Of a DNA stretch of 53,029 nt, positions 5,557 to 23,718 are shown piece by piece (position 1 is the first letter of the stretch; every line of letters begins with the position of its first letter). The translations under genes and the position numbers were made by a program. Source of the stretch: Pseudomonadota bacterium (GTDB lineage Bacteria > Pseudomonadota > Gammaproteobacteria > Burkholderiales > Chitinibacteraceae); contig JAPLQI010000053.1 of the NCBI GenBank assembly GCA_026399755.1, positions 1 through 53,029 on the forward strand, read 5' to 3'. Below the pieces are notes generated by a model. The model was not told the origin of the DNA. It searched no databases and worked only from the letters and a program-made list of their open reading frames with translations.

Positions 5557-5823
5557 GGCATGGGGCTTTTCAAATCCCCCTTGAAGCACGCCGAAGCGAG
5601 GAATAAGCGGCTAGGGGTTTCGGAAAAGGGGTAGCGAGGCAGCGAGCGAGCAGCCTTTTTCGCCGAGCCGATTATCCGCAGTGAGGGGCTTTCGTGCTGG
5701 TCGGGGCGGCCTTCTTTGCTTACTTTCTTGGCCGTTCAAGAAAGTGAGTCCCCCGCGGGGGATTCCCGCACCAAAATCAACGTGCCGAAGGCACTAAAAA
5801 AATCTTTTTAACTTTGCTTAGCG
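5557..5823 (+). repeat. Structured dispersed element, family 1, copy A
   Basis: About 265 bp, running from GGCATGGGGCTTTT to CTTTGCTTAGCGCC. The same layout recurs at 14718-14975 and, inverted, at 23458-23718. Conserved parts in order are CCCCTTGAAGCACGCCGAAG; a variable middle; TTTCGTGCTGGTCGGGGCGG; a 12-bp hairpin (5719-5730 with 5737-5748, loop GCCGTT); the palindrome CCCCCGCGGGGG; and a GTGCC/GGCAC hairpin followed by an A-rich and a T-rich run. It has no open reading frame conserved across copies. The remaining part of the gap 5381-5952 holds only a family 2 repeat and a short palindrome. Confidence 0.85.
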
Positions 5824-5871
5824 CCTATAGGAAGAAACCCGTCGGCCTTTAGCATGACGAGCTAGGAAATC

Positions 5872-5888
5872 GGCGGGTTTCACCCGCC
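5872..5888. repeat. 17-bp palindrome GGCGGGT-TTC-ACCCGCC
   Basis: A perfect 7-bp inverted repeat with a 3-base loop, about 65 bp before the 3' end of the Hsp70-like gene. A related GGGTTTCACCCGCC fragment lies at 23784-23798 beside copy C of the large repeat, so it may belong to a further dispersed family. Confidence 0.5.
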
Positions 5889-5952
5889 ATACGAATAACA
5901 CCACACCCGCAAACGTGAGCACGATCAAGCTGTGCCCACCCCACAAAGGCTC

Positions 5953-7218
5953 TCAGCCAAACCGTCTTGCCGCTTCCACCGCCAAACCTGTCCCGATACT
6001 GCCGAATAAATCGCCTTCTACATGGCGGGCATTGGGCAGTAAGGCGCCGACTTGGGCACGTAGTAGCGGTACGCCGCTGGAGCCGCCGGTAAAGAAGACG
6101 GTGTCGACTTGCCCAACGGTGATGCCTGCGGTGTTTAATAGCTCGGTGACTGTTTTTTCTACCGTATCGACCAAGCGGGCGATTGAGGTGTCAAAATCGG
6201 CGCGGCTTAGTTCGTGAGTGAGGTCTTCTTCTAGCCGATCCAGCGAGATGATGGTTTTATCGCTGCCGGAGAGGGCAATTTTGGCGTCTTCGACTTGCAA
6301 GGCCAGCCAGTGTCCGGCGCGTTGCTCGATCAGGCTCATCAAGCGATCCAGCTTATCGCGCTCCATGGCATCGCGGTAAACATCGGCCAGATCGCTCCAA
6401 GAGCGGCGGGTATAGGCAAAGTTAATCGTGTGCCAAGTGGCCAGATTAAAGAAGGTGCCCGAAGGAACTTCCGAGTTATTTTTCAGCCGCGTTTTATAAC
6501 CTAATAAGGGCATCACGCCAGCAAGGCTCAGCGCTTTATCAAAGTCCGTTCCGCCAATATGCACACCGGCACTGGCTAATAAATCATCGCGGCGATCTAA
6601 AACCTGCGCGCGCTCTGGTGATAAACGCACCAGTGAAAAATCTGAAGTACCGCCGCCAATATCCACAATCAGCACCAGCTCTTCTTTTTGAATGCTGCAC
6701 TCATAATGAAAAGCGGCCGCAATCGGCTCGAACTGAAAGCTAATTTCCTTAAAGCCAACTTGATAGGCAATCTCGGCCAGCGTTTTTTCGGCTTGCACAT
6801 CGGCGGCCGCATCGTCGTCGACAAAATGCACGGGCCGGCCAAATACTGCCTGCTCGAAAGGCCGACCCGCCGTGACTTCAGCGCGGTGTTTTAGCTCGCC
6901 AATATATTTAGCTAATAAGCCACGCAGCGGTATAGCACGACCATTTACTTCGGTTTGCGCGTCGATCAGGCTGCTGCCCAAAAGGCTTTTGAGTGAGCGC
7001 ATCAGGCGGCCTTCATAGCCTTCTAGATATTCGCCCATGGCAGCGCGACCAAAGCAAACCGAATCTTCTTCGGCATTAAAAAACACCATCGAAGGCAGAG
7101 TGGCCTTACCATCTTCCAAAGAAATCAGCGTGTTGTGGCCGGAGCGAACCCAGCCCACCGTAGAATTAGAGGTACCAAAATCGATGCCGCAGGCACGAGC
7201 AAAAGTTGGAGTAGTCAC
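5953..7218 (-). CDS. yegD: Hsp70-family chaperone-like protein, YegD type
   Basis: An actin-like ATPase of about 421 residues lacking the C-terminal peptide-binding domain of DnaK, as in E. coli YegD (450 aa). The phosphate 1 motif is GIDFGTSNSTV near the N-terminus, the phosphate 2 motif is VLIVDIGGGTSDFSL in the middle, and the adenosine motif is VFFTGGSSGVPLLR near the C-terminus. FEPIAAAFHYE matches the connecting segment of the family. The start is uncertain: I use the GTG at 7218 (VTTPTFARACGIDFG), with GGAACAGG upstream; the open frame extends to 7278. The gene stands alone between rlmG and the divergent flavin reductase gene. Its client and cellular role are unknown. Confidence 0.82.
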   Translation of the reverse strand: MTTPTFARACGIDFGTSNSTVGWVRSGHNTLISLEDGKATLPSMVFFNAEEDSVCFGRAAMGEYLEGYEGRLMRSLKSLLGSSLIDAQTEVNGRAIPLRGLLAKYIGELKHRAEVTAGRPFEQAVFGRPVHFVDDDAAADVQAEKTLAEIAYQVGFKEISFQFEPIAAAFHYECSIQKEELVLIVDIGGGTSDFSLVRLSPERAQVLDRRDDLLASAGVHIGGTDFDKALSLAGVMPLLGYKTRLKNNSEVPSGTFFNLATWHTINFAYTRRSWSDLADVYRDAMERDKLDRLMSLIEQRAGHWLALQVEDAKIALSGSDKTIISLDRLEEDLTHELSRADFDTSIARLVDTVEKTVTELLNTAGITVGQVDTVFFTGGSSGVPLLRAQVGALLPNARHVEGDLFGSIGTGLAVEAARRFG

Positions 7219-7374
7219 AGGCCTGTTCCGGACGGCAAAAAGGGGCGTAATTCTACCCGCCCAAAGCAGGAAAAACAATTTTGAATCATTATCTTATCTT
7301 TTAAGGTTTGTATTGAGTTAAGCAGTTTTGCCCCCATTTACGCTTAATACTTAAGTTAAATGGGCAGCACAAGC

Positions 7375-7980
7375 ATGGAACTAACCATTTCGGCACTTTC
7401 GCCCGATGAAAAATACGCACTCATCAGCGATTGTGTTGTACCTCGCCCTATTGCATGGATTAATACCCAAAGCGTCAATGGCATCGTTAATGTAGCGCCT
7501 TTTTCTTACTTTAATATTGTGTCTAATGAACCCATGATTGTGTCGGTGAGTATTAATCGCCGCCACGATAATGCCCTGCTTAAAGATACTGCGCGCAATA
7601 TTTTGCAAACCGGTGAATGCGTAATTCACCTGCCTTCGCGCGGACATGCGCCACAAGTCAATGCCAGCGCGGCTGCTTTTGCCCCAAATGAAAGCGAAGC
7701 CACCGCCCTTGGGCTGGCACTTACGCCATCCACCGCCGTAAAACCACCGCGCCTTGCCGATTGCGGTATTGCGTTGGAGTGCCGTCTGCATATGCATGTG
7801 GAAGTAGGCGATCCTGTCGTGGCTGATTTAATGTTGCTAGAAGTGATTCACCTTGGTGTGGCGGACGATTTACTCAGAGACGGGCGCATCCACCCCGAGC
7901 CACTCGACCCGCTCTCCCGCCTTGGCGGCCCAGATTACGCTGTGATTGGTGAGCGCTTTATTATTCAGAGGCCTAAATAA
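7375..7980 (+). CDS. Flavin reductase-like FMN-binding domain protein
   Basis: A protein of 201 residues with the split-barrel fold of the flavin reductase/DIM6-NTAB family. The hallmark segments are VVPRPIAWI near residue 20, NVAPFSYFNIVSNEP near 40, and HLGVADDLLRDGRIHPEPLDPLSRLGG near the C-terminus. Members bind FMN; many are reductase components or oxidoreductases of unknown substrate. I chose ATG 7375 (MELTISAL) because family members start there; ATG 7360 would add five residues, and neither has a clear Shine-Dalgarno. The stop codon abuts the start of the RidA gene, so the two are surely cotranscribed. Confidence 0.8.
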   Translation: MELTISALSPDEKYALISDCVVPRPIAWINTQSVNGIVNVAPFSYFNIVSNEPMIVSVSINRRHDNALLKDTARNILQTGECVIHLPSRGHAPQVNASAAAFAPNESEATALGLALTPSTAVKPPRLADCGIALECRLHMHVEVGDPVVADLMLLEVIHLGVADDLLRDGRIHPEPLDPLSRLGGPDYAVIGERFIIQRPK

Positions 7981-8379
7981 ATGAACGAATCCAATATAAA
8001 CAAAGCCATTATCCATAGCGATAACGCGCCCAAAGCCGTCGGCACCTATTCGCAAGCCGTCAAAATCGGCAATACCGTGTATTTATCCGGCCAGATCGGC
8101 CTAGACCCTGCCAGCGGTATTCTGGCGGAAGGCTTTAATGCCCAAGCGCATCAAGTCTTTCAAAACCTGCGTGCGGTATGTCAGGCAGCAGGTGGCGACT
8201 TGGAAAATATAGCTAAGCTAGGTGTATTTGTTACCGACCTAAGCAACTTTGCCGCCCTAAACGACATCATGGGACAATATTTTACCGAGCCCTACCCCGC
8301 CCGAGCCGCCATTCAAGCCGCAGCCCTCCCTAAGGGCGCACTGGTTGAGGCCGATGGGGTGATGGTTTTAGATTTGTAA
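7981..8379 (+). CDS. ridA: RidA family enamine/imine deaminase
   Basis: A protein of 132 residues matching the YjgF/YER057c/UK114 family. These trimeric cytoplasmic enzymes hydrolyse reactive 2-aminoacrylate and other imines released by PLP enzymes, protecting the cell. The active-site arginine is R108 (YPARAAIQ) and the conserved glutamate is E123 (LPKGALVEAD). VYLSGQIGLDP near residue 34 is the usual N-terminal signature. The ATG follows directly on the stop of the flavin reductase-like gene, with AGAGG nine bases upstream. Confidence 0.93.
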   Translation: MNESNINKAIIHSDNAPKAVGTYSQAVKIGNTVYLSGQIGLDPASGILAEGFNAQAHQVFQNLRAVCQAAGGDLENIAKLGVFVTDLSNFAALNDIMGQYFTEPYPARAAIQAAALPKGALVEADGVMVLDL

Positions 8380-8407
8380 TCGCCCAAGATTCATTCTGGA
8401 GCTTCTG

Positions 8408-9025
8408 ATGCAAACAAAATCCCATTGGGAGCAGGTTTATTCAAGTAAGGCGACCGATGCGGTCAGTTGGTTTCAGGAACACGCCGAGCATTCTTTAAAG
8501 CTAATTCAAAATACGGGCCTGCCCGTATCCGCAGCGATTATTGATATAGGCGGCGGCGCATCGACCTTGGTCGATGATTTATTAGACTATGGCTATCGCA
8601 ATCTCACCGTTTTAGATCTTTCTGCAGCGGCAATGGCAGCGGCTGCAAAACGCCTTGGAAGCCGAGGCCTCGATATAACGTGGATCGAGGCCGATATTAC
8701 CCAAGCCCCGCTATCAGCGAAGACCTACGATATTTGGCACGACCGTGCTGTTTTTCACTTTCTGACCACAGAAGAAGAAAGGCAAGCCTATGTCGCAGCG
8801 GTACTTGATGCGGTAAAGCCCGGTGGGCATGTCATCGTCGCGACTTTTGCGGAAGACGGCCCCACACAATGCAGCGGCCTGCCTGTGATGCGCTACAACG
8901 CCACCGATCTCCACTCTGAATTTGGCGCTCCTTTTGAGCTGGTGCACCACGACAAAGAAGCACACCACACCCCTTTTGGCACCATCCAGCAATTTGTGTA
9001 CTGCTACTGCCGTAAAGTTTCTTAA
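8408..9025 (+). CDS. Class I SAM-dependent methyltransferase
   Basis: A 205-residue Rossmann-fold methyltransferase. Motif I is IIDIGGGASTLVDDLL near residue 46, motif II is LTVLDLSAAAM near 71, motif III is WIEADIT near 96, and the post-III region has YDIWHDRAVFHFLT. It starts MQTKSHWEQVYSSK, like small methyltransferases of the UbiE/tellurite-resistance type. GGAG six bases before the ATG supports the start. It follows ridA by 28 bp and is probably cotranscribed. The substrate cannot be told from the sequence. Confidence 0.85.
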   Translation: MQTKSHWEQVYSSKATDAVSWFQEHAEHSLKLIQNTGLPVSAAIIDIGGGASTLVDDLLDYGYRNLTVLDLSAAAMAAAAKRLGSRGLDITWIEADITQAPLSAKTYDIWHDRAVFHFLTTEEERQAYVAAVLDAVKPGGHVIVATFAEDGPTQCSGLPVMRYNATDLHSEFGAPFELVHHDKEAHHTPFGTIQQFVYCYCRKVS

Positions 9026-9050
9026 CAATAAGCTTACGCAGTCATTATAT

Positions 9051-9113
9051 AAAACGGGGTTTCTCCGTGAAACTCCGTGTTCTCAGTGCCCTCCGTGGTT
9101 CAAGATTTGGGTT
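9051..9113. repeat. Dispersed intergenic repeat, family 2 (CTCCGTG type), copy 2
   Basis: Contains TTTCTCCGTGAAACTCCGTG, TTCTCAGTGCCCTCCGTGG and TTCAAG. It is the reverse complement of the CACGGAGGGCACGGAGAACA string at 14600-14640. It sits in the gap between the methyltransferase and the CoA-binding protein gene. Confidence 0.65.
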
Positions 9114-9158
9114 TTCACTGCGTAGCATCACTAATCAATCATTCTCTGGAGAAACGCT

Positions 9159-9572
9159 ATTTTCCAAAATCCAAGTGACGAAGCCATCCGCCAGTTTCTG
9201 CTCAGCACTCCTCGCATTGCGGTAGTGGGCCTCTCGCCCAAGCCCGATCGACCTAGCTTTGCGGTTGCCAAGGTGATGCAGCAGGCGGGTATGCAAATTG
9301 TGCCGGTGCGCCCTTTTACTGAAAGCGTACTGGGCGAGACCGCCTATGCCAGCCTGAGCGATGTGCCGGGCAAGGTGGATTTGGTCAATGTATTTAGAGC
9401 TGCGGATCAGATCGACGCTATTGTGGACGAAGCCATTGCCTTGCAGATCCCAGCGATATGGATTCAGCAGGGCATTATTAATGAGGCAGCAGCAGAACGC
9501 GCCCAAGCAGCGGGGCTGTTTGTGGTGATGGATCGATGTATCAAGATTGATTATTTGCGGCTCTGCCTATGA
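9159..9572 (+). CDS. CoA-binding domain protein, YccU family, with a probable ATT start codon
   Basis: A 137-residue Rossmann-like protein, exactly the length of E. coli YccU. TPRIAVVGLSPKPDRPS is the nucleotide/CoA-binding loop, and the tail has WIQQGIINEAAA and VVMDRC. No ATG, GTG or TTG precedes the first beta strand: the frame has a stop at 9132 and the first ordinary start is a GTG at 9225, inside the glycine-rich loop. An ATT at 9159 is preceded by TCTGGAGA at proper spacing and gives the family's usual beginning (FQNPSDEAIRQFLL), so I infer initiation there. The physiological role of YccU proteins is not established. The stop overlaps the next gene by 4 bp. Confidence 0.8.
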   Translation: MFQNPSDEAIRQFLLSTPRIAVVGLSPKPDRPSFAVAKVMQQAGMQIVPVRPFTESVLGETAYASLSDVPGKVDLVNVFRAADQIDAIVDEAIALQIPAIWIQQGIINEAAAERAQAAGLFVVMDRCIKIDYLRLCL

Positions 9573-10330
9573 GCTGTCATCTGGTCTTGGGGGATTTTGC
9601 CGCTGATCTTTTGCGTCAGTCGCTTGGCCCCTACGCCGATATCCGCATCCATCGCGATGACTTAGCACTTGGCCCACTCGTCGATATCGACCATGTTTGC
9701 CCCGTGGCCAGAATTCAGTTTTGGAATGAAGTCTTCCCGCTATCCAGCTTTGACTTTAGCGATGTACTGCCCGCAGGTAACGCCCAGCTCGCCGCCCTGC
9801 CAGAAGACCTTACTTTATGGATAGGCACATCTTGTGGCGAGGCGCTGTTACTGCGCAGATTAGCGTGGTGGCGCAATCAAACAGGGCAAAGTTTTAAGCT
9901 GATTATTCCTGACACCACAGGAGTAGCCAGCTATGTTGCAGGCCAAGTGCCACTCAGCCTGCTGAGCCCCCAGCAAATCGAATCGGCCAGCAGCGAACTT
10001 ATCCCCCTCGCCCAATTACAAAAGCTAGCGCAAGAATGGCAAGCACTATGCCAGCAAAACAGTACCTTCCGTGGCTGGAATGGGCAGGAATTTCAGCATC
10101 TGGGCGAAACTGCGCTCGACGCTGAAATGCTGGCTCTGATCACCGACAACTACTTGCCTTGCAGCCAGATTGCAGGACTTTGGATACAGGCCAGCAAAGC
10201 TTTTTTTCGCAGCGATGTATTAGCCATGTGGCGCTTACGCTGCTTAGCGGCGCAAGGGCTAATCGAAATGGAAAGCCATCCGGATCAGTACGATTTATTT
10301 GCTTTTAAAGTAAGGAAGAATTTTATTTAG
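9569..10330 (+). CDS. DUF1835 / DUF3658 domain protein
   Basis: A 253-residue cytoplasmic protein. The N-terminal third has the DUF1835 pattern (HLVLGDFAADLLRQ then RDDLALGPLVD). The C-terminal part has the DUF3658 pattern (LDAEMLALI near residue 181 and AMWRLRCLAAQGLIE near 223). Function is unknown in the family. Its ATG overlaps the stop of the YccU-type gene (ATGA), so the two are translationally coupled. Confidence 0.75.
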   Translation: MSCHLVLGDFAADLLRQSLGPYADIRIHRDDLALGPLVDIDHVCPVARIQFWNEVFPLSSFDFSDVLPAGNAQLAALPEDLTLWIGTSCGEALLLRRLAWWRNQTGQSFKLIIPDTTGVASYVAGQVPLSLLSPQQIESASSELIPLAQLQKLAQEWQALCQQNSTFRGWNGQEFQHLGETALDAEMLALITDNYLPCSQIAGLWIQASKAFFRSDVLAMWRLRCLAAQGLIEMESHPDQYDLFAFKVRKNFI

Positions 10331-10367
10331 GATACTGCTCACATTAACTTCCCGATTTTTAAACAGT

Positions 10368-10441
10368 CGTCATTCCCGCGAGCCTTTGGCGGGAATCCAG
10401 CTACGCGGCTGGATTCCCGAGAAAATCATTAGGGAATGACG
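10368..10441. repeat. Palindromic intergenic element with ATTCCC/GGGAAT blocks (dRS3-like)
   Basis: The outer arms CGTCATTCCC and GGGAATGACG enclose an inner hairpin GGGAATCCAGC-TACGCG-GCTGGATTCCC (10391-10418) and a CATTCCCGC/GCGGGAAT pair. ATTCCC-N-GGGAAT units are the hallmark of the dRS3 repeats of Neisseria; here the spacers are longer. It lies between two converging genes and could also act as a bidirectional terminator. Confidence 0.7.
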
Positions 10442-10476
10442 GGCTTAATTTCGGGCAGTTATTTCGATCCACATCC

Positions 10477-11292
10477 TTAGCGTAATTCAGGCAATTTTTT
10501 CGCCGCTACTAAATAGCTACGGTTTTCCGGAATAGCTTGCTGCAAGAAATTCACGATCGAATCAACGGTTACGGTATCAATTTTCCCCGCCATCCGCCTA
10601 TCCGTTGGATGATCGTCAAAAGCGATATTGGCGCGAAACATCCGCCCTCCCAAGCGTTTAAAGGTATTTATTTTTAGCTCGCTAGGCTGGTAATTCATCA
10701 ATTTTAGCCATTGCTGTGCTTGAGCACGGCTGCGGATATCCAGATCGCGGCTCATCGCTGAAGCCAAACCTTCTAGCACCCATTGATTGGAGTTTTGATA
10801 GAGCGTGGAAAACGGATAGGCCAACATATTATATTTATTGCCATGCAATTGCTCCATTTTGCTTTGCTCGCTTAACCAAGCTTGCAGCTTATCTTGCACC
10901 GCAATAGATGGAACGATAATCAAGGCATCATAGGCAAAAGGATCATCCATAAAGAAATTAGCCAAACCTTCACGCCATAAATCTGATTGCACCGTGCCGC
11001 ACTGATTTAATAAATGCATCACCCGCCATTGGCCTTGGGCGCTAGGATCTCGCCAAACAAAGCCCAGATGAGAAAACCTTAGATTGTAAGACGATAAATC
11101 TTGACCAACCCTCGCAATCAACGCCACTTTCGGCTTGATTTCATCGAGCTGGTGCATGCTGGCGTAGCCCGCGGCCATCGCCTGACGAAACGCTTCCGTA
11201 TTAGGCGGCGCATCTTGGCAGGCGCGCCCTGCCCAAACATGGCTCATTAACAGACTGGCGATCACCCCAGGCAGCCATTGATTCAAACGCAT
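10477..11292 (-). CDS. DUF2145 family exported protein
   Basis: A protein of about 271 residues with an N-terminal signal peptide (hydrophobic to VWAGRA, then a conserved cysteine). The mature part has ALIARVGQDLSSYNLRFSHLGF, VMHLLNQCGT, the FFMDDPFAYDALI block and MLAYPFSTLYQNSNQWVLE, which I recognise as DUF2145. The LARVGQ and SHLGF spacing resembles cysteine/papain-like NlpC folds, but I would not assign catalysis. The ATG at 11292 is chosen because AAGG lies eight bases upstream; the frame also has ATG 11298 and GTG 11301. The start lies about ten bases after the stop of the small exported gene, so they form an operon. Confidence 0.78.
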   Translation of the reverse strand: MRLNQWLPGVIASLLMSHVWAGRACQDAPPNTEAFRQAMAAGYASMHQLDEIKPKVALIARVGQDLSSYNLRFSHLGFVWRDPSAQGQWRVMHLLNQCGTVQSDLWREGLANFFMDDPFAYDALIIVPSIAVQDKLQAWLSEQSKMEQLHGNKYNMLAYPFSTLYQNSNQWVLEGLASAMSRDLDIRSRAQAQQWLKLMNYQPSELKINTFKRLGGRMFRANIAFDDHPTDRRMAGKIDTVTVDSIVNFLQQAIPENRSYLVAAKKLPELR

Positions 11293-11302
11293 GCACATCA
11301 CC

Positions 11303-11746
11303 TTATTGGGCAGAAATTTTGGATTGGTGCAGCAAAGACATCCCTATTTCATTGGGAATAAACGCCACCAATTTGCCCGAGGCAATCAAGGCATAGCCGG
11401 TACTTTCGGCGGTAGTTTTAATCGATGTACCCACGGCAATGCCTAATTCTTTGAGCATGACTTCGCTGACTTTCACCATATAACGGCTGCCATCACTCAC
11501 TCGCTCAATAGTCAGCATGCTCGCTTCCCCCGCTACCTTAGCAACCCCCACCACGGTAAAACCCACGCCCATACCAAATGCTGCCGAGGCTTCAACCGGC
11601 TTACCCTGTAGCGACAATACCGGTGAGAGCACCACTGAGATCAAACCACTTTGCAGTATTTCGCTCCCCTCATTGCGAGCCTGTGCGGGAGTCATCAATA
11701 GCCAGCTACTTAGCAAGATTGCAAGCAGTGAGGTGAGTTTTAGCAT
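11303..11746 (-). CDS. Small exported protein, partner of the DUF2145 gene
   Basis: A 147-residue protein with a clear signal peptide (LLAILLSSWLLMTPAQA, cut after QARN). The mature part contains two hydrophobic glycine-rich stretches (FGMGVGFTVVGVAKVAG and ALIASGKLVAFI) separated by a polar segment. I do not recognise the family. It is translated just before the DUF2145 gene on the same strand, so the two may act together in the periplasm or envelope. Confidence 0.65.
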   Translation of the reverse strand: MLKLTSLLAILLSSWLLMTPAQARNEGSEILQSGLISVVLSPVLSLQGKPVEASAAFGMGVGFTVVGVAKVAGEASMLTIERVSDGSRYMVKVSEVMLKELGIAVGTSIKTTAESTGYALIASGKLVAFIPNEIGMSLLHQSKISAQ

Positions 11747-11843
11747 TTTTATAATCCTTTTTAAATACTCGTAAAATACATAAATTAATAAAAATGTCAG
11801 TTTTGTAACAAAATACTATGCAATAGACATCTCTATAAATCAA

Positions 11844-11876
11844 GCAATACACTGACACAAAAAGTCAGTGTATTGC
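11844..11876. repeat. Perfect 13-bp inverted repeat between divergent genes
   Basis: GCAATACACTGAC (11844-11856) and GTCAGTGTATTGC (11864-11876) pair perfectly across the loop ACAAAAA. No T run follows on either side, so it is not a normal intrinsic terminator. It lies between the small exported gene (minus) and dapF (plus), where both promoters should be. A cruciform or operator is possible. Nothing else is recognised in 11747-12031. Confidence 0.6.
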
Positions 11877-12031
11877 ACAATGCATCAATAATGTAGAAAC
11901 CAAAACCTATACAAGCCGCTGTAAATTCACCACATAAGCAGCACAGCCTGTGATTTTTTCTTTCACACGCATTGCCTTAAGTGGCAGCTAAGTTTACCTT
12001 TAGTTAAATTCTTCAGCGGCGCGCCAAATAT

Positions 12032-12883
12032 ATGAAACTTCAGTTCACAAAGATGCAAGGCCTAGGTAATGATTTTATGGTGATTGATGGGGTAAATCAG
12101 CAGATCAAGCTGAGCGCCAACACCATACGCCAGCTAGGTGATCGGCATTTTGGTATTGGTTTTGATCAGCTTTTATTGGTGGAAAACTCGAAGCGTGCCG
12201 ATATCGATTTTAGCTACCGCATTTTTAATAATGACGGCAGTGAAGTCGAGCAATGCGGCAATGGCGCTCGCTGCTTTGCGCGCTTTGTGCACGATAAAAA
12301 ACTAAGCCTTAAAAAAGAAATCGCAGTTGAAACAGCAAGAGGGGTGATTTATCCACGGCTAGAAGACGATGGCAATGTCAGCGTCAACATGGGCGTACCG
12401 CAATTCTCCCCAAAGGAAATCCCTTTTATTGCTGACAATGATCTTGTGATTCACCCACTGGATGTTGACGGAGTAAACTTTGAGATTAGCGTGGTCTCAA
12501 TGGGTAATCCGCATGCCGTTCAGGTAGTTGCTGACGTTGAAACCGCCCCTGTTGCCAGCATCGGGCCAAAGATTGAAAACCACCCCCAATTCCCAGCCAA
12601 GGTTAATGTTGGCTTTATGCAAATCATCAGCCGTGATGAAATCAAACTCCGCGTGTTTGAACGCGCTGCAGGCGAAACATTGGCTTGCGGCACAGGCGCA
12701 TGTGCTGCGGTTGTAGCGGGGATACGCCGAGGCTTGCTTAACCCTCGTGTTCGCGTGATCACTCACGGCGGGGAACTGAGCATAGCTTGGGCAGGTGGCT
12801 CAGCAGCAGTATGGATGACCGGCCCAGCCGTCAGCGTGTTTGACGGCGTTATCAATCTCCAAGGAAAAGAATATGCAGCCTGA
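12032..12883 (+). CDS. dapF: Diaminopimelate epimerase
   Basis: A 283-residue enzyme converting LL- to meso-diaminopimelate in lysine and peptidoglycan synthesis. It begins with [11 protein letters not shown], the DapF signature. The catalytic cysteine pair is C75 (EQCGNGARC) and C219 ([14 protein letters not shown]). Length fits the family. It starts the dapF-DUF484-xerC cluster seen in many proteobacteria; the next gene begins 11 bp before its stop. Confidence 0.97.
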
Positions 12884-14599: not shown

Positions 14600-14640
14600 A
14601 CACGGAGGGCACGGAGAACACGGAGTTTCACGGAGAAAAA
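14600..14640. repeat. Dispersed intergenic repeat, family 2, copy 3
   Basis: CACGGAGGGCACGGAGAACA followed by CGGAGTTTCACGGAGAAAAA. It is the reverse complement of the copy at 9051-9113. It lies just after xerC and upstream of copy B of the large element. Confidence 0.65.
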
Positions 14641-14717
14641 CAAAGGGAAAACAAGCGATCAGCTTTGAGGTTTGAGTATTTTTAAATTCAGACGACTGGA
14701 TTTACATCGCGACTCAT

Positions 14718-14975
14718 GGCATGGGGCTTTTTAAAGTCCCCTTGAAGCACGCCGAAGTGAGGAACAAGCGGTGCGGGGTTTCGGCGAGGACTGTCTGAGC
14801 GAAGCGAGTTCCGCAGCCGCCGCCTCGCTTGTCCGCAACAAGGGGTTTCGTGCTGGCCGGGGCGGCCTTCTTTTGGTTCTTTTCTTGGCCGTTCAAGAAA
14901 AGAACGCCCCCGCGGTGGCTACCGCTCCAAAATCCATGTGCCGTAGGTACTAAAAAGAGTTTTTTGTTTTTTCTT
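14718..14975 (+). repeat. Structured dispersed element, family 1, copy B
   Basis: The most diverged of the three copies. It keeps the opening GGCATGGGGCTTTTT, CCCCTTGAAGCACGCCGAAG, TTTCGTGCTGG, the GGCGGCCTTCTTT segment and the closing GTGCC hairpin with A and T runs. Its central hairpin is a perfect 12-bp stem (14876-14887 with 14894-14905, loop GCCGTT). Several stem positions differ from copies A and C, with both sides changed together. Small open frames inside it are not conserved between copies. Confidence 0.82.
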
Positions 14976-14997
14976 AGTAACTGCAGCATAGCGTCAT

Positions 14998-16152: not shown

Positions 16153-17919
16153 TCAAAAACCTAAGGCTCTCGCCCCTTGGTAAAAGATAAACGACAGCAC
16201 CCAAGCAAGTAATAAAGAATAGACCACAGAGAATGTCGTTAGCGCGACGCTATTCGATTCCTTGCGCATGGCCGCAATAGTAGAAACGCAGGGCACATAG
16301 GTCAATGAAAATAGCATAAAGCTATAAGCCGATACCGGATCAAGCACAATAGATAAGTGATGCGCCAAGGCTGGGCCATCCTGCCCGGCGATCACCGCCA
16401 GCGCCCCCAACACCACTTCTTTGGCCACAAAGCCAAACATTAAAGCAATCGACAACTCGGCCTGAATGCCAATCGGCGATAACACTGGCTGAAAGAATTG
16501 AGCAACCATGGTGGAATAACTGTGTTGTGGATTTGGATAATTGCTCAGCAGCCAAACCAAGACCACACCGATCACAATCATCGTCGTAGCCAAGCGCACA
16601 AAACCTGCCGCCTCGCCCCAGCCACGCAAAAAGATTTGCCGCAGCACTGGGAAGCGATAAGGCGGCAGCTCTAGCGTAAATGGCTCGGTCGATTTAAAGC
16701 GCCCACGCAGCAACAGCGCCGTGCCCATAGAGATAAAAATACTCGCAAAATAGAGCGACAGCAGCACCCAAGGTGCTTGCAGCGGGCTAAACAGCGCGCC
16801 GGTTAAAAACAGAAAAATCTGTAAACGTGCCGAACATAGCGAAAAAGGAATCGCCAGCATCGTCAGCAAACGGGCCTTTCTATCCCTGATCACCCTTGTG
16901 CCCATTAAGGCAGGCACATTGCAGCCAAAACCCATCATCAGCATCACAAAGCCACGCCCATCCATGCCCAGATGCGCCATCAGCCCGTCCATCATAAAAG
17001 CGGCACGCGAGAAATAACCCGAGTCTTCGATAATCGCCATCAGGCAAAAGAACAGAAAAATAATGGGGATAAACGTCAGCACCGTGCCTAGGCCATCAAA
17101 TACCCCGTTCACTAAAAAGCCCGTCCAAAATGGCGGCCAAGAGGCGGTGGCTGGCGTTAAAACATCAGCCTTAAGCCAATCCAGCCCCTCATTAGCCAAA
17201 TCTTGCAAAGGCACGCCTATGGCGTAAGTCAGCTGAAATAGGCAAAACATCATTAACACAAACAGCGGCAAGCCCAGTAGCGGATGCAATATCCAGCGAT
17301 CCAGCATGGCAGTGGGGCCAGGAGGCAAAATGGCGGGGCGCTGAATAAAGCGGCTATACAGCCTAGCCTCGTCCTGATGCAGGGTATTCGATGCGGGCGC
17401 ATCGGCCAGAGTAATTTGCTTGGGCGCTTGCTGGCTGATCAGGCGATTGAGCGCCTCTTTTAAATCAGGCACGCCTTGGCCATGCTTGGCACTGATTTTT
17501 AGCACGGGGCAGGCCAGCTCTGCAGCCAGCCCTTCTAGATTAATTTGTACCCCAGCCTGCTTGGCTTCATCGCTCATATTAAGCGCAATAATCAGCGGCG
17601 CGCCCAGTGCTTTTAGCTGCAAAGCCAACACCAGTTGCCTATCTAGCTGCGTGGCGTTCAGTACCAATAAAATGGCATCTAGCTCAGTTTTATTCAGAAA
17701 TTCCTGAGTAATACGCTCGTCTTCAGCCCCGCCACTTAGATCATAAATCCCCGGCAGATCAACCATCTGCACCATAGATCCGCCTAGCAAAATACGGCTA
17801 GAGGCCAATTCCACCGTCAGCCCCGGCCAATTGGCGGTGCGGGCTGTGCCGCCTGTGATGCGATTAAATAAGGTTGATTTACCGGTATTGGGCATGCCCA
17901 CCAGGGCAACGCGCTTCAT
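16153..17919 (-). CDS. feoB: Ferrous iron transporter FeoB, compact form
   Basis: A 588-residue inner membrane Fe(II) transporter with an N-terminal G domain. G1 is GMPNTGKS (8-15), the switch I threonine lies in NWPGLTVE, G3 is DLPG, G4 is NMSD and G5 is the SAK region. Both Gate domains are present, with GFGCNVPALMGTR and LCSARLQIF. It is much shorter than E. coli FeoB (773 aa): the spacer between the G domain and the first membrane segment (HPLLGLPLFVLMM) is only about 50 residues, so the usual helical GDI domain is reduced. Its start overlaps the feoA stop by 4 bp. Iron (Fur) control is expected, but I could not point to a convincing Fur box. Confidence 0.92.
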   Translation of the reverse strand: MKRVALVGMPNTGKSTLFNRITGGTARTANWPGLTVELASSRILLGGSMVQMVDLPGIYDLSGGAEDERITQEFLNKTELDAILLVLNATQLDRQLVLALQLKALGAPLIIALNMSDEAKQAGVQINLEGLAAELACPVLKISAKHGQGVPDLKEALNRLISQQAPKQITLADAPASNTLHQDEARLYSRFIQRPAILPPGPTAMLDRWILHPLLGLPLFVLMMFCLFQLTYAIGVPLQDLANEGLDWLKADVLTPATASWPPFWTGFLVNGVFDGLGTVLTFIPIIFLFFCLMAIIEDSGYFSRAAFMMDGLMAHLGMDGRGFVMLMMGFGCNVPALMGTRVIRDRKARLLTMLAIPFSLCSARLQIFLFLTGALFSPLQAPWVLLSLYFASIFISMGTALLLRGRFKSTEPFTLELPPYRFPVLRQIFLRGWGEAAGFVRLATTMIVIGVVLVWLLSNYPNPQHSYSTMVAQFFQPVLSPIGIQAELSIALMFGFVAKEVVLGALAVIAGQDGPALAHHLSIVLDPVSAYSFMLFSLTYVPCVSTIAAMRKESNSVALTTFSVVYSLLLAWVLSFIFYQGARALGF

Positions 17920-18176
17920 GCCGCCACCGCGATCAAGCTGCTATCCGCTTGCGGCAGAATATGGACCATAATCTGCTTGGCATCGTTACGGCGCAGCATA
18001 AATTCGGTACTGCCAACACGCAGCTGCAAAGGCCCACCCAGCATGCCACGGCGGATCACCTCTATATCACGCTGCACATGCAACCCAAGCGCAGCAAGGC
18101 GTTGGCATAAATCAGCATCAAGCTGAGTGGAGAGAATTCTAGCAAGGGTATTGAGCGGAAGATCTGCGAGTGTCAT
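17916..18176 (-). CDS. feoA: FeoA family protein
   Basis: A small SH3-like cytoplasmic protein of 86 residues that works with FeoB. It begins MTLADLPLNTLARIL and has LCQRLAALGLHVQRDIEVIRRGMLGGPLQLRVG split over the core, including the G-P-L turn typical of FeoA. I place the start at ATG 18176, where homology begins; the frame is open back to a GTG at 18248 without family similarity. No strong Shine-Dalgarno precedes the ATG. It is coupled to feoB by an ATGA overlap. Confidence 0.88.
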   Translation of the reverse strand: MTLADLPLNTLARILSTQLDADLCQRLAALGLHVQRDIEVIRRGMLGGPLQLRVGSTEFMLRRNDAKQIMVHILPQADSSLIAVAA

Positions 18177-18285
18177 GATTTTAGCAATGAGAACGGTTTT
18201 TGTTCCGACATCATCTGCCTTACATTTTATGGCGTCAATGTCAGACACTGGGTATATTGACTTGCATCAGCATTCGCTCAGCACG

Positions 18286-18323
18286 AAAAAAAAACCATGC
18301 ACTTGATATGCATGGTTTTTTTT
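18286..18323. terminator. Bidirectional intrinsic terminator downstream of purD
   Basis: Nine A, CCATGCA, loop CTTGATA, TGCATGG and eight T form a perfect hairpin with a U tract on either strand. It ends the purD transcript, which runs on the minus strand, and isolates the feoAB promoter region. Confidence 0.9.
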
Positions 18324-18339
18324 ACTCGCCTCAAGCCAA

Positions 18340-19617
18340 TTACTTACGGCCAATCGCTCGCCAGCCAATATCACTACGATACTGCGCACCTGCGAATGAA
18401 ACGCCTGCCAAGATTTGATAAGCGCGTTTTTGGGCCATTTTAAAGCTGTCACCAAAGGCCGTAACGCAAAGAACACGGCCACCGGCGGTGATGGCTTCGC
18501 CTTGTTCGTTCAGCGTTGTGCCCGCATGGAACACATGGCCGTCCTCTAAAGCTGTCGTTGGTAAGCCGCTGATTAAATCGCCTTTACGCGGGGTTTCTGG
18601 GTAATTGGCTGCAGCCATCACCACGCCCATTGCCACGCGTCTGTCCCACTCGGCTTCGATCTGATCCAGCGTGCCATTGACACCGTGCTCGAGCAGGGTG
18701 ACGAAATCGCTTTTTAAACGCAACATAATCGGCTGAGTTTCAGGGTCGCCAAAGCGGCAGTTGTATTCGATCACTTTTGGATTGCCCAAAGTATCGATCA
18801 TCAAGCCAGCATACAAAAAGCCAGTGAATACGGTGCCGTCTTTAGCCATACCTTGCACGGTTGGCAAAATCACTTCGCGCATCACTTTGGCGTGCACATC
18901 TGGGGTGACCACAGGCGCTGGGCTATACGCGCCCATGCCGCCAGTATTCGGGCCTTCATCGCCATCCAAGAGGCGCTTATGATCTTGGCTAGAAGCCATG
19001 GCCAGCACATTTTTGCCATCGACCATCACAATAAAGCTGGCTTCCTCACCAACAAGGCACTCTTCAATCACCACCCGAGCGCCCGCATCGCCAAATTTAT
19101 TATCTGACAGCATGGAGTCAACTGCAGCGTGCGCTTCATCCAGCGTCATGGCCACAACCACACCCTTGCCCGCCGCTAGGCCATCGGCCTTGATCACAAT
19201 CGGCGCGCCCTGCGCTTTGATATAAGCGTGCGCTTCATCCGCATTGGCAAAGGTCTGATAAGCCGCGGTAGGAATACCGTGGCGCTGCATAAAGGCTTTG
19301 GCAAAGTCTTTAGACCATTCCAACTGCGCCGCTGCGCGTGTTGGACCAAAGATTTTTAAACCCGCTTCGCGAAATGCATCGACCACACCTTGCGACAATG
19401 GCGCTTCTGGCCCGACAACGGTAATGGCAATATTTTCTGCTTTTGCAAACGCGATCAGCTCATCAATGGCCGAGATATCAACATTAATTAAATCTTTTTC
19501 AAGTGCAGTACCCGCATTACCAGGCGCCACAAATACTTTACCTACGCGCTCTGACTGGGCAATTTTCCAAGCCAATGCATGCTCACGTCCACCCGAACCA
19601 ATCACCAAAATATTCAT
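18340..19617 (-). CDS. purD: Phosphoribosylamine-glycine ligase (GAR synthetase)
   Basis: A 425-residue ATP-grasp enzyme, the second step of de novo purine synthesis, joining phosphoribosylamine and glycine. It starts MNILVIGSGGREHALAWKI, the PurD N-terminus. VIKADGLAAGKGVVVA is the ATP-binding motif and NTGGMGAYSPAP and EYNCRFGDPETQ are conserved in the ATP-grasp core. AGGAAACAG upstream of the ATG supports the start. It is the last gene of a run purH-pagP-purD and is followed by a strong terminator. Confidence 0.97.
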   Translation of the reverse strand: MNILVIGSGGREHALAWKIAQSERVGKVFVAPGNAGTALEKDLINVDISAIDELIAFAKAENIAITVVGPEAPLSQGVVDAFREAGLKIFGPTRAAAQLEWSKDFAKAFMQRHGIPTAAYQTFANADEAHAYIKAQGAPIVIKADGLAAGKGVVVAMTLDEAHAAVDSMLSDNKFGDAGARVVIEECLVGEEASFIVMVDGKNVLAMASSQDHKRLLDGDEGPNTGGMGAYSPAPVVTPDVHAKVMREVILPTVQGMAKDGTVFTGFLYAGLMIDTLGNPKVIEYNCRFGDPETQPIMLRLKSDFVTLLEHGVNGTLDQIEAEWDRRVAMGVVMAAANYPETPRKGDLISGLPTTALEDGHVFHAGTTLNEQGEAITAGGRVLCVTAFGDSFKMAQKRAYQILAGVSFAGAQYRSDIGWRAIGRK

Positions 19618-19631
19618 GAATCTGTTTCCTG

Positions 19632-20192
19632 TTAATCGAATTCGTAACGACCGAATAAATAAGCCACATTGCCATTATTAAGCTGACCATTTAAGCGCGG
19701 AATAAAGGTTCCCATCACGGAGGCCTTACCATAACGCACGGCTAAAAAAGGCAGGGGAGCTGGGAAGGGAATTCCAGCAATCACATCTTGACGAGAAATA
19801 AGGGACAGAGACATCCCTGCACCAACGGATAACTTCCCAACCACCGGCCAAAACCATAACTTCATATAGCCCACTTGCAACTGTGGGTCTTCATGCGAAT
19901 CGGCCATGATCATGCCGTAGATAAATTCTTGATTGCCATTATCATCTTCAATTCGCTTACCAATACCACCACCGTAAGCAAACTCATTAAATGACTCTAG
20001 TAGCTCAGCCTCATAAGTTGAACGCTGATGCCAAGAATAGCCCGAGACTAGCAAATCATTCTTACCTTCTCGGTTTATTTTATCCACACGCTGACAAGCA
20101 GCAGTCGCCCAATCCCACATATTGGAGCAATCCAATGCAGAAGCAGGTAAAGCGATCAGCAAGCAAAGAGTGGCAAATAGTTTTTTCATCAT
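19632..20192 (-). CDS. pagP: Lipid A palmitoyltransferase PagP
   Basis: A 186-residue outer membrane enzyme that transfers palmitate from phospholipid to lipid A, or another palmitoyl acceptor, at the cell surface. A signal peptide ends near ALPASA. The eight-stranded barrel family pattern is present: GYSWHQRSTY, NEFAYGGGIGKR, and FPAPLPFLAVRYGKAS near the end, closing in YLFGRYEF. The catalytic triad of E. coli PagP is kept as H55, D98 and S99. I chose ATG 20192; ATG 20189 and TTG 20201 are alternatives. It lies between purH and purD, 14 bp ahead of purD, an unusual location for an envelope enzyme. Confidence 0.85.
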   Translation of the reverse strand: MMKKLFATLCLLIALPASALDCSNMWDWATAACQRVDKINREGKNDLLVSGYSWHQRSTYEAELLESFNEFAYGGGIGKRIEDDNGNQEFIYGMIMADSHEDPQLQVGYMKLWFWPVVGKLSVGAGMSLSLISRQDVIAGIPFPAPLPFLAVRYGKASVMGTFIPRLNGQLNNGNVAYLFGRYEFD

Positions 20193-20266
20193 TTCAACCA
20201 AAATATTTCAAAGCACCGACCACACAGCCAGCTTCTCAATTAAACACACAACACCATAAACACAAT

Positions 20267-20290
20267 AAGCGGAGAATCTCTTCCCCGCTT
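20267..20290. terminator. Weak hairpin between purH and pagP
   Basis: AAGCGG and CCGCTT form 6-bp arms around a 12-base loop; four T follow on the plus strand and only a mixed T-rich stretch on the minus strand. It may attenuate transcription from purH into pagP and purD rather than end it. Confidence 0.35.
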
Positions 20291-20311
20291 TTATATATTC
20301 AAACGGCTAAA

Positions 20312-21874
20312 TTAATGGCGGAAATGACGAATGCCAGTCACAACCATTGCAATACCATGCTCGTCAGCTGCAGTAATCACTTCGTCATCACGCACCGAAC
20401 CACCCGGCTGGATAATTGCAGCAACGCCATTTTCAGCAATGACATCCACGCCATCGCGGAACGGGAAGAAAGCATCCGACGCTGCAACCGAGCCACGCAA
20501 ATCAAGGCCAGCACTTTTGGCTTTAATTGCCGCAATTTTGGTGGAATCTACACGGCTCATCTGGCCAGCGCCCACACCCAGTGTTTGGCCCTTGCCGCAG
20601 AATACAATGGCGTTTGATTTAACAAATTTAGCCACATTCCAAGCAAATAGCAGATCTTTAAGCTGAGCTTCTGTTGGCTGCAGCTTAGTGACTACTTTTA
20701 AGTCATTCAAAGTCAGGATGTGTGAATCAGGCGTTTGCACTAATAAACCACCGCCCACGCGCTTCACATCAAAACGATTAGCACCCTGCTCTACTGGCAC
20801 TTCTAATACGCGAACATTTTGCTTTTTAGCCAGCAAAGCCAATGCTTCTGCGGTATAGGCAGGCGCAATTAGCACTTCCATAAATTGCTTAGAAACCGCT
20901 TCGGCTGTATCGGCATCGACTGTTTGATTAAACGCGATAATGCCGCCAAATGCGCTCGTGGTGTCCGTTGCAAAAGCCAAGCGATAAGCCGAGTAGCTGT
21001 CTGTACCTAAGGCCACACCGCAGGGGTTCGCGTGCTTCACAATCACACAAGCAGGCTCTGCAAACTGCTTCACGCATTCCCAAGCCGCATCAGAATCGGC
21101 CACATTGTTGTAGCTTAATTCCTTGCCTTGCAATTGCTTGTAAGCGGCAAGACTGCCCATCGCTGGATCGATATCACGGTAAAAAGCAGCGCTTTGATGC
21201 GGGTTTTCGCCGTAGCGCATGTCTTGCACTTTAACGAATTGCATATTCAGGCGGTCTGGATAAGATTTTTTCTCGCCGTCTGCGGTAAGCGCAGTCAGGT
21301 AGTTAGAAATCGCACCATCGTAAGCAGCAGTATGGCTAAAGGCTTTTTTTGCCAGCACTTTACGTGTTGCAAATAATAATGAGCCATCGTTGGCATGCAT
21401 TTCTTTGATCAGATCAGCGTAATCACTGGCATCAGTCACAATCGCCACATGCGCATGGTTTTTAGCGGCAGAGCGCACCATGGCAGGGCCGCCGATGTCG
21501 ATATTTTCGATAGCGTCTTCATAGCTGCAATCAGGACGGGCAATGGTGGCTTCAAATGGGTAGAGATTCACGCACACCAAATCGATATTGCCGATTTGAT
21601 GCTCTGCCATCGTGGCAACGTGTGCTGGTAAATCGCGACGGCCCAAGATACCGCCGTGGATTTTTGGATGCAGCGTTTTTACACGCCCATCGAGCATTTC
21701 AGGAAAGCCGGTGTAATCAGCGACTTCGATCACAGGCACGCCGTTGTCGCTAAATAATTTTGCGGTCCCACCGGTCGACAAAATTTCAACACCCATAGCC
21801 GCCAATGCTTTGGCAAAATCGAGCACACCGGTTTTATCGGATACGCTGATAAGCGCGCGGGTAATTTTGGTCAT
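20312..21874 (-). CDS. purH: Bifunctional AICAR formyltransferase / IMP cyclohydrolase
   Basis: A 520-residue protein performing the last two steps of IMP synthesis. The N-terminal IMP cyclohydrolase domain starts with [19 protein letters not shown] and has [10 protein letters not shown] and [13 protein letters not shown]. The C-terminal AICAR transformylase domain has [27 protein letters not shown] and ends with [10 protein letters not shown] and [17 protein letters not shown] upstream supports the ATG at 21874. It follows fis by 67 bp, completing dusB-fis-purH. Confidence 0.98.
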
Positions 21875-21941
21875 GATTTCAGCTTCCCTGTGTATATAAA
21901 CAATCTGGCTTGGTAAAAACCTGAACTGCGCTTACGCGCAA

Positions 21942-22181
21942 TTACAGCAAATCATAAATCTGTAACTTCTTACGCAAAGTATTGCGGTTAATACCCAGCA
22001 TATCGGCCGCTCGGGTCTGATTGCCCTCTACGCGTTGTAATACCAATTCTAACAGTGGCTTTTCAACACGAGCCAAGACCATATCGTACATTGCACACGG
22101 CGGTTCTCCGTCTAGGTCTTGGAAATACTGGTCGAGAGAAGCGTAAATTGCCTCAGCAATCAGATCGGTTTGAGTACTCAT
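21942..22181 (-). CDS. fis: Fis family DNA-binding protein
   Basis: A 79-residue nucleoid-associated regulator. The C-terminal helix-turn-helix reads GNQTRAADMLGINRNTLRKKL, as in Fis of gamma- and betaproteobacteria. The N-terminal half forms the dimerising helices, here shorter than E. coli Fis (98 aa), as is usual in betaproteobacteria. It directly follows dusB (the stop and start share one base), the conserved dusB-fis arrangement, so it is translationally coupled. Confidence 0.95.
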   Translation of the reverse strand: MSTQTDLIAEAIYASLDQYFQDLDGEPPCAMYDMVLARVEKPLLELVLQRVEGNQTRAADMLGINRNTLRKKLQIYDLL

Positions 22182-23209
22182 TAAATCTCCCGATTCATTG
22201 TGGTTTTATTATCTAAATCTTCGTACTGCAGCCGCTCACCTAGGGTAAGCAAGCCATCAAAATACTGGCGGGTAGTGTTCGCTTGCCCTGCCGTTGATTC
22301 CTGGGCATACATCGCCTGGCGAAATTCATTACTGCCGCGTAAGCCCTTGGTGTACCAAGCAATATGTTTACGCGCGATACGGCAGCCGGAGTATTCGCCA
22401 TAAAAGGCATAGAGATCATCCAGATGGCCGAGCAATACATCGCGAACCTCTACCACTTCGGGCGCGGGTAAAAGCTCACCGCTGGCCAGATAGTGGGCAA
22501 TTTCGCGGAAAATCCACGGCCTGCCCTGTGCTGCTCGCCCGATCATAATCGCGTCTGCACCGGTCTCTTTAAGCACCAGCGCCGCTTTTTGCGGGCTATC
22601 AATATCGCCATTGGCAATCACAGGAATCTGAATCGATTGTTTAACTTGGGCGATCAGCGCGTAGCGTGCATGGCCTAAGTACATATCTTCACGCGTCCGG
22701 CCATGAATAGCCAGCGCGGCTATCCCTGCTTCTTCAGCCAGCTTGGCCACACGCATAATATTTTCTTCGCCATTGGCAAAGCCTAGGCGGGTTTTCAGTG
22801 TAACTGGCACGTCCACCGCGCGCACCACGGCATGCAGAATCCTTGCAACTAAGTCTTCATTTTGCAACAAGGCTGAGCCTGCCAACTTATTGCAGACCTT
22901 TTTAACCGGGCAGCCCATATTGATATCAATGATTTGCGCGCCGTGCGCCACATTATGCCGCGCCGCTGCTGCGAGTAATTCAGGGTCGGACCCGGCAATT
23001 TGCGCGGAAACCGGCGCAAGCTCGCCTTCAAAATTAGCGCGATGCAAGGTCTTTTGGTGCGAGCGCATACTGCTGTCAGCCGTAATCATCTCGCTCACCG
23101 CATGCCCCGCGCCAAATCGCTTGCAAAGCATGCGAAAAGGCCGATCGGTCACACCCGCCATGGGAGCGACAATCAGATTATTAACAAGGGGATAGGGGCC
23201 GATATGCAT
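22181..23209 (-). CDS. dusB: tRNA-dihydrouridine synthase B
   Basis: An FMN-dependent TIM-barrel enzyme of 342 residues that reduces uridines in the tRNA D-loop. It begins MHIGPYPLVNNLIVAPMAGV, matching DusB; the catalytic cysteine is in IIDINMGCPVKKV, and VIANGDIDSP and AIMIGRAAQGRPWIF bind FMN phosphate. The ATG at 23209 is chosen from the family N-terminus; an ATG at 23239 would add ten residues. It is the first gene of the dusB-fis-purH run. Confidence 0.95.
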   Translation of the reverse strand: MHIGPYPLVNNLIVAPMAGVTDRPFRMLCKRFGAGHAVSEMITADSSMRSHQKTLHRANFEGELAPVSAQIAGSDPELLAAAARHNVAHGAQIIDINMGCPVKKVCNKLAGSALLQNEDLVARILHAVVRAVDVPVTLKTRLGFANGEENIMRVAKLAEEAGIAALAIHGRTREDMYLGHARYALIAQVKQSIQIPVIANGDIDSPQKAALVLKETGADAIMIGRAAQGRPWIFREIAHYLASGELLPAPEVVEVRDVLLGHLDDLYAFYGEYSGCRIARKHIAWYTKGLRGSNEFRQAMYAQESTAGQANTTRQYFDGLLTLGERLQYEDLDNKTTMNREI

Positions 23210-23300
23210 ATGCTGCTGGCGCAGTAAAAGGCCGCGCATTCTAACGCTTGCCTAATTTTTAAGCAACAACCTTAAAGCGGATTTTTATGAAAAAGCCTTA

Positions 23301-23340
23301 GAAAAAACCTTAAATCTGTAGACACAGAGAACATGAAGTT
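23301..23340. repeat. Dispersed intergenic repeat, family 2, copy 4
   Basis: AAAAACCTTAAATCTGTAGA followed by CACAGAGAACA, closely matching 5391-5432. As at 5391, it is followed about 150 bp later by a copy of the family 1 element, though the latter is inverted here. Confidence 0.55.
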
Positions 23341-23457
23341 TAAAAGCAGAGCACAGAGTAACTGCAAGTTAGAACAAAAGCGGTATACAACGCTTTGGTG
23401 ATCATTATTAATACTTTACAAGCATCGCATCGTTCGTAGGGAGATGAAACCCCATAT

Positions 23458-23718
23458 CCGCTAAACAAAGTCATAAAGATCTTTTTAGTGCCTCCGGCAC
23501 GCTGATTTAGGTGCGGCATCCCCGCGGGGGACTCACTTTCTTGAACGGCCAAGAAAGTAAGCAAAGAAAGCCGCCCCGACCAGCACGAAAGCCCCTCAGC
23601 TGCGGACAATCGAGTCGGCGGCGGGCGGGATTGGCTCGTTCCTCGCTCCCTAGCCGAAACCCCGCCCCGCTTGTTCCTCGCTTCGGCGTGCTTCAAGGGG
23701 ACTTTTCAGCTCTATGCC
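23458..23718 (-). repeat. Structured dispersed element, family 1, copy C (inverted)
   Basis: The reverse complement reads the same as copy A over most of its length, including AAGTCCCCTTGAAGCACGCC, TTTCGTGCTGGTCGGGGCGG, the 12-bp hairpin (here 23532-23543 with 23550-23561) and GTGCCGGAGGCAC before the A and T runs. The variable middle differs. The gap 23210-23859 contains this element, a family 2 repeat, a GGGTTTCACCCGCC fragment and a terminator, and no gene. Confidence 0.85.

Follow-up and report, generated by a model that had tools for sequence, protein, structure and literature searches.

A dispersed intergenic repeat with a predicted pseudoknotted fold in a Chitinibacteraceae bacterium and its relatives

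Introduction

Non-autonomous, modular and dispersed repeats include miniature inverted-repeat transposable elements (MITEs) and mosaic families, BOX and NIME among them. On the RNA side, triple helices occur at the 3' ends of transposon RNAs, and in telomerase RNA loop 1 of an H-type pseudoknot lies in the major groove of stem 2. As described in the available part of PMC3116915, REPINs are intergenic, high-copy inverted doublets, with single copies as derivatives. TwoAYGGAY (RF01731), which also appears in a table row of PMC2864571 (available part), is an orphan RNA with two CsrA-like loops, proposed as CsrA sites in the part of PMC4333381 available. Here, we analysed contig JAPLQI010000053.1 of a Chitinibacteraceae bacterium (53,029 nucleotides, hereafter the window), where an earlier note, made from the sequence alone, had reported three copies (A, B and C) of an intergenic element of about 260 bp with a covarying hairpin.

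The element resembles MITEs, BOX and NIME in being non-autonomous, modular, dispersed and polymorphic between relatives; unlike them, it has arms that keep in many genera a fold with pseudoknots and possibly a triple helix (BOX and NIME being set apart by their descriptions). With REPINs it shares an intergenic location, high copy number, inverted doublets and single copies that are likely remnants, but its unit is far larger and carries pseudoknots and a mirror tract, and a link to Y1/RAYT transposases was not found. Like TwoAYGGAY, it has an outer stem with two hairpins, whereas the Rfam model of TwoAYGGAY covers neither the pseudoknots nor the inverted pairs and is not matched by the copies of the window's own genome. 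Its likeness to telomerase-type triple-helix pseudoknots, namely a loop 1 of pyrimidines running in parallel with stem 2's purine strand, is one of topology predicted from covariation only, and no homology is claimed. Literature searches found no paper on the element; the available parts of PMC4333381 and PMC2864571 do not mention such a module, and that of a REP survey (PMC12306157) holds nothing on it.

Results

A high-copy repeat family spread over many genera

Copies A, B and C were present where the earlier note had placed them and aligned end to end, with the common end blocks, hairpin with a GCCGTT loop, GC-rich palindrome and closing hairpin that it describes. The hairpin stem reads CTTACTTTCTTG/CAAGAAAGTGAG in copies A and C and GTTCTTTTCTTG/CAAGAAAAGAAC in copy B; as had been noted, three pairs are altered on both sides of the stem and one wobble has become a Watson-Crick pair (T-G to T-A). 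In copies A and C, homology extends past the 5' ends first proposed, up to CGCTAAGCAA, and the 3' end TTGCTTAGCG is its inverse match. Since the own genome holds only a handful of stem types (26 copies), the three window copies alone prove little, and it is the copies of other genera that settle the covariation.

The anticipated high copy number was found throughout the own genome (4.95 Mb, 145 contigs): an element 17-mer, with at most two mismatches allowed, gave 127 matches (73+54) against 0 for the reversed pattern, and a covariance model of the element's 3' half, built from 26 own-genome copies (R1), gave at least 150, the weakest of these with an E-value of 2.8e-8. These copies are mostly single arms, and 30 of them, found by an exact seed, are mosaics of three middle modules, several hairpin types and two kinds of 5' flank. 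A coding role was rejected, as at most 12 of 28 own-genome copies (parsed from the 30) are free of stops in any single frame. Many copies with the second type of 5' flank are preceded by short direct repeats of the CACGGAG type, as in the window at 14600-14645.

R1 matched 42 of 61 genomes, comprising all 9 of the genus, all 28 others of the family and 5 of 24 others of the order. A second model (R2), built from 41 mostly family-level copies, matched 95 of 369 genomes and 78 of 272 genera of the class, as well as 96 of 398 genomes of the phylum, of which 50 fell outside the class (48 in a single family). A search with one exact pattern retrieved 75 stretches from named genomes, including Stenotrophobium, Caballeronia, Ca. 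Burkholderia verschuerenii, Hydrocarboniphaga, Lysobacter, Luteimonas, Thioalkalivibrio, Rubrivivax and Chitinilyticum. Copies were also seen in records labelled Chitinophaga, Bordetella parapertussis (a metagenome-assembled genome) and Desulfuromonadales (loci L251, L207, L229 and L261), which reflect either transfer or mislabelled bins. The plasmid records gave one match, in Iodobacter fluviatilis, with six places (best 80.7% identity over 88% of the query). The own genome is itself probably from Iodobacter. No match was found in the phage collection, and a phage origin was rejected on that ground. The copies did not resolve as remnants of one known transposon in any search that we ran, none of which drew on a dedicated insertion sequence (IS) database.

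The hairpin loop covaries with an upstream segment

Among relatives the stem varies in sequence yet remains paired, and its loop is complementary to a segment just 5' of a pyrimidine tract (U), making the hairpin the predicted core of an H-type pseudoknot (PK1). Its stem 1 would be formed by the upstream segment (W1) and the loop segment (W2), whose combinations in relatives include TCGCC/GGCGA, TGTCC/GGACA, TGCCC/GGGCA, CGTGC/GCACG, GCTGC/GCAGC and GGCAC/GTGCC. We took 196 oriented copies with a six-base loop, of which 110 had one of three common purine patterns, and reduced these to 77 distinct 45-base cores in a fixed register, without selection on W1:W2 pairing. Over the five loop pairs, 84.7% of cells held standard pairs (57.1% when shuffled), and covariation was 0.597 against 0.176±0.021 in shuffles that ignore the relatedness of the copies; none of 500 shuffles scored as high, and slid-register controls reached at most 0.167. 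At least four of the five pairs form in 64 of the 77 cores, and fewer in 13. A previous test with a free offset, which raised the permuted mean, gave 4.61 against 3.75±0.045 of 5. We consider the repeat family and the PK1 covariation well supported, with the fold itself predicted from that covariation.

The pyrimidine tract mirrors the purine strand of the stem

The U tract runs parallel to the stem's purine strand, with T on A and C on G, as in TTTTCTT with AAAAGAA, TTCTTTT with AAGAAAA and TCTTCTT with AGAAGAA; loop 1 of the predicted pseudoknot therefore matches the purine strand in parallel, in the same order and polarity as in telomerase RNA. A seven-base mirror fit was found in 55 of 67 distinct combinations, against 24.3±2.7 when permuted (maximum 33 in 2000). 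Asymmetric combinations, 29 in number, comprised 19 that fit the mirror only, 4 that fit a direct repeat only and 6 that fit neither, all six of which hold the first six predicted bases; with 4 direct-only against 19 mirror-only cases, a direct-repeat reading of the tract was rejected. A previous test, in which U was set by the best W1 match, gave a mean of 5.74 of 7 against 4.84±0.13; its 19 asymmetric combinations comprised 7 exact mirrors, no exact direct repeat and 12 of neither kind. In loci of the own genome and genus, 59 of 63 parsed cores follow the mirror rule, the other 4 having one extra T. PK1 may thus include a triple helix, as this covariation would predict. One copy (L094) has a G-rich stem GCAGGGGGCTTTG with upstream CTTTGGGGTG, which is mirror-like and holds no pyrimidine triplex code.

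Support is weaker for a second pseudoknot (PK2) 3' of PK1: the mean run was 2.80 against 2.23±0.058 (148 distinct), with the hairpin chosen automatically and often being a competing helix.

Copies in other genera form outward-facing pairs

In 200 loci not picked for pairing (some overlapping), we parsed 219 cores and counted neighbours within 1.5 kb: 3' ends point outward in 55 cases and inward in 2, and 7 cases are tandem. Arms aligned as inverted repeats in 45 of 48 pairs, first hits being 71-94% identical over 47-385 nt and usually ending near the end of PK2, and in one genus the arms stop at a common terminus, GGCGTGCGAAAC or a near-identical form. Of ten proteins inside wide pairs, six had a Pfam match (AbiU2-type HEPN, HEPN, KAP NTPase, DpnII/MboI-type nuclease, ion channel and Tae4-type amidase), and these may be either cargo or neighbours of the arms; no transposase was among the ten, no IS database having been searched. 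Single accessory-looking genes lie between outward pairs at L137, L144, L180, L182, L190, L194 and L239, the last resembling an alanine exporter by eye. The wide pair L274 was rejected as a unit, as it spans core-looking genes. At L295, an element arm contains a nested repeat of about 271 bp (about 1805-2080), of which that genus has many copies.

Orthologous sites differ in presence, orientation and modules

We compared the sites of copies A, B and C in eight genomes of the same genus (G001-G008). Site A lacks the element in G001 and G005 and carries it in G004, G007, G008 and, as a truncated copy, G006 (G003, too long to align, and G002, with no data, are left out). Site C lacks it in G005 and G008 and carries it in G001, G003, G004, G006 and G007 (G002, too long, is left out), and at site B it is present in each of the seven genomes that gave data. 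Orientation is reversed at site B in two of these seven (G006 and G007) and at site C in G003, and module composition varies between orthologous copies. Such a pattern is what re-insertion or conversion between copies would leave. These differences indicate that the element is or was mobile, one of the two options of the earlier note; mobility is well supported, the six places on one plasmid and the outward pairs also counting for it. Inverted termini and presence/absence polymorphism occur together here, as in MITEs. No target-site duplication was evident in the flanks inspected.

Other repeats adjoin the element. A palindromic repeat GTAGGGCGGGTGAAACCC...GGGTTTCACCCGCCCTAC surrounds copy C (window 23781-23801) and its counterparts in relatives at this site (L116); G008 has a form of it without the element, which suggests a nested insertion. 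At site B in G005 and G007 (L114 and L112) the element is adjoined by a separate repeat, GGGTCTGTTGACGTTTCATTC...GAATGAAACGTCAACAGACCC.

Placement beside genes and association with TwoAYGGAY

We classified 113 distinct own-genome copies of the at least 150 by their flanking open reading frames, called mechanically. With frames of at least 150 amino acids, 44 were tandem sense, 19 tandem antisense, 31 convergent, 3 divergent and 16 unclassified (sense bias 44 vs 19, one-sided binomial p 0.001); at 100 amino acids the counts were 41, 20, 32, 7 and 13, respectively (p 0.005). This sense bias fits an RNA in 3' untranslated regions (3'UTRs) and is no proof of one.

Several gammaproteobacterial loci have TwoAYGGAY immediately 5' of the module, among them both arms of L136 (57.1 and 56.1 bits) and L182 (46.4 bits; gathering threshold 43). 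RF01731 matched 23 of the 369 class genomes, 15 above the cut-off, and the module was found within about 100 nt 3' of TwoAYGGAY, on the same strand, at 20 of 30 fetched loci in 15 of the 23 genomes, and was absent at the other 10. No RF01731 match was found in the window at the gathering threshold, in five own loci at E<=1 or in the own genome at E<=0.001 with stricter filters. No Rfam family corresponded to the module, in the window at gathering thresholds or in selected loci by E-value, and the sole above-gathering match belonging to an arm was TwoAYGGAY, in the 5' domain. Together, the sense bias near genes and this link in other lineages favour the earlier note's other option, a regulatory RNA, and the mobile-element and RNA readings may both be true.

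Table 1. Coordinates of the element copies and their parts in the window
Feature	Position	Strand	Remarks
Copy A, type-1 element	5501..5823	+	sequence and alignments; core of the earlier note 5557-5823
Copy A terminal inverted ends	CGCTAAGCAA 5501-5510; TTTGCTTAGCG 5813-5823	+	
Copy A conserved 5' block	5580..5596	+	CTTGAAGCACGCCGAAG
Copy A W1	5707..5711	+	CGGCC; partner of loop segment W2 (GGCCG, 5730-5734); pairing rule from relatives
Copy A pyrimidine tract U	5712..5717	+	TTCTTT; predicted third strand on stem AAGAAAG
Copy A PK1 hairpin stem	5718..5748	+	GCCGTT loop 5731-5736
Copy A GC-rich palindrome	5749..5769	+	candidate PK2
Copy A closing hairpin	5782..5794	+	GTGCCGAAGGCAC
Copy B, element bearing the alternative 5' flank	14718..14975	+	CACGGAG-type repeats upstream
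Copy B W1	14863..14867	+	CGGCC
Copy B U	14868..14874	+	TTCTTTT; one T longer than in copy A; matches stem purines AAGAAAA
Copy B PK1 hairpin	14875..14905	+	GTTCTTTTCTTG type; loop 14888-14893
Copy B candidate PK2	14906..14925	+	
Copy B closing hairpin	14938..14950	+	GTGCCGTAGGTAC
Copy C, type-1 element	23459..23777	-	ends CGCTAAGCAA (23777-23768) and TTTGTTTAGCG (23469-23459)
Copy C W1	23569..23573	-	CGGCT
Copy C U	23563..23568	-	TTCTTT
Copy C PK1 hairpin	23532..23562	-	
Copy C candidate PK2	23513..23531	-	
Copy C closing hairpin	23488..23500	-	GTGCCGGAGGCAC

Discussion

Covariation between loop and upstream segment and between tract and stem, over many genera, supports the proposal that selection acts on a folded single strand, and the retention of this knotted-fold code across many related bacteria suggests that the folded molecule itself is preserved by evolution. 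The explanation we put forward, to which as a whole we give about an even chance, is that of a non-autonomous mobile repeat whose sense strand would encode a structured RNA, often in 3'UTRs. It would begin with a 5' domain, followed by PK1, in which the pyrimidine tract would lie on the stem's purine strand as a third strand, then by PK2 and, outermost on the 3' side, by the closing hairpin; the unit of other genera would be an inverted pair of arms with 3' ends outward, and copies in Iodobacter are mostly single arms. Downstream of genes, the knotted 3' module would serve as a road-block or a protein-binding tail on read-through transcripts, a role for which support is modest. The folded RNA would be the object kept by selection, and the DNA would be copied or moved by a putative enzyme acting in trans.

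Several observations weigh against this explanation. The elements are not unusually stable as nested structures, a stable nested fold being rejected with whole-element z values of +0.15, -2.03 and -1.25 for copies A, B and C. Stem and loop pairs scored together gave 0.416 against 0.138±0.009, a score in which stem pairing is partly built in, since the finder required 11 or more stem pairs; the shuffles' disregard of relatedness is a further caution. Mismatches in the W1:W2 helix, 11 G-T against 10 A-C, leave RNA and single-stranded DNA undecided by counts, and the stem excess of 14 G-T over 2 A-C was withdrawn as an argument for the sense strand: the finder accepted G-T and not A-C, making that count uninformative. 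The inversions at sites B and C imply that orientation is not strictly kept, and neither a clean empty site for a paired element nor a demonstrated target-site duplication was found.

The most serious competitor, which we regard as unlikely though far from negligible, is that the fold acts as single-stranded DNA, recognised by a single-strand transposase or recombinase at the element's ends, with RNA function unneeded. Copies at both ends of paired elements, sharp common termini and strand counts that do not separate the two molecules agree with it, as does the fact that T-A-T triplets also form in DNA. It sits less well with the sense bias beside own-genome genes, the association with TwoAYGGAY, an RNA with loops similar to CsrA sites on RNA, and the scarcity of Y1 transposases near the element: 30 Y1 loci held two weak module matches (E 4.7e-4 and 1.1e-3), and 4 of 22 element-bearing genomes had no Y1 match. 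The ends of IS200/IS605 elements also differ, as the two ends here carry the fold on opposite strands. RNA is favoured only modestly over single-stranded DNA. The same Y1 results led us to reject RAYT-driven movement and had already weakened a REPIN/RAYT-like origin, in which palindrome doublets are spread by an IS200-related tyrosine transposase; this we think very improbable, despite the inverted intergenic doublets, high copy number and single copies as derivatives that it shares with REPINs (as given in the available part of PMC3116915), as the units here measure about 110-270 nt and hold pseudoknots, against palindromes of 20-40 nt.

An ordinary MITE with long inverted repeats, its palindromes being relics of transposon ends and its covariation a product of copying or conversion, would account for the mosaic modules, the turnover and the inverted arms, but copying and conversion create neither the mirror between U and stem nor new complementary W1/W2 combinations across genera, and we find this improbable. 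A regulatory RNA that titrates CsrA/RsmA-type proteins and is spread by transposition seems quite improbable as well: the TwoAYGGAY loops proposed as CsrA sites (PMC4333381, available part) and the module's place 3' of them speak for it, whereas own-genome copies show no TwoAYGGAY match and the conserved pseudoknots are left unexplained.

The structured mobile repeat could be extended to a more specific and rather doubtful form. This would be a mobile class found over much of Gammaproteobacteria, including betaproteobacteria, with two ends that would each encode an outward-facing RNA or single-stranded DNA with tandem pseudoknots and a triple helix and that could enclose unrelated genes; the folded nucleic acid, and not a duplex end, would be recognised in movement or on neighbouring transcripts. 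If this is right, the curated RNA families that we searched have missed a structured element kept over many genera, one domain of which would often be the orphan TwoAYGGAY, making the orphan's role testable. It would be unusual for covariation to point to a third strand in a bacterial repeat, and as copies occur in harmless cultivable bacteria, direct tests would be possible.

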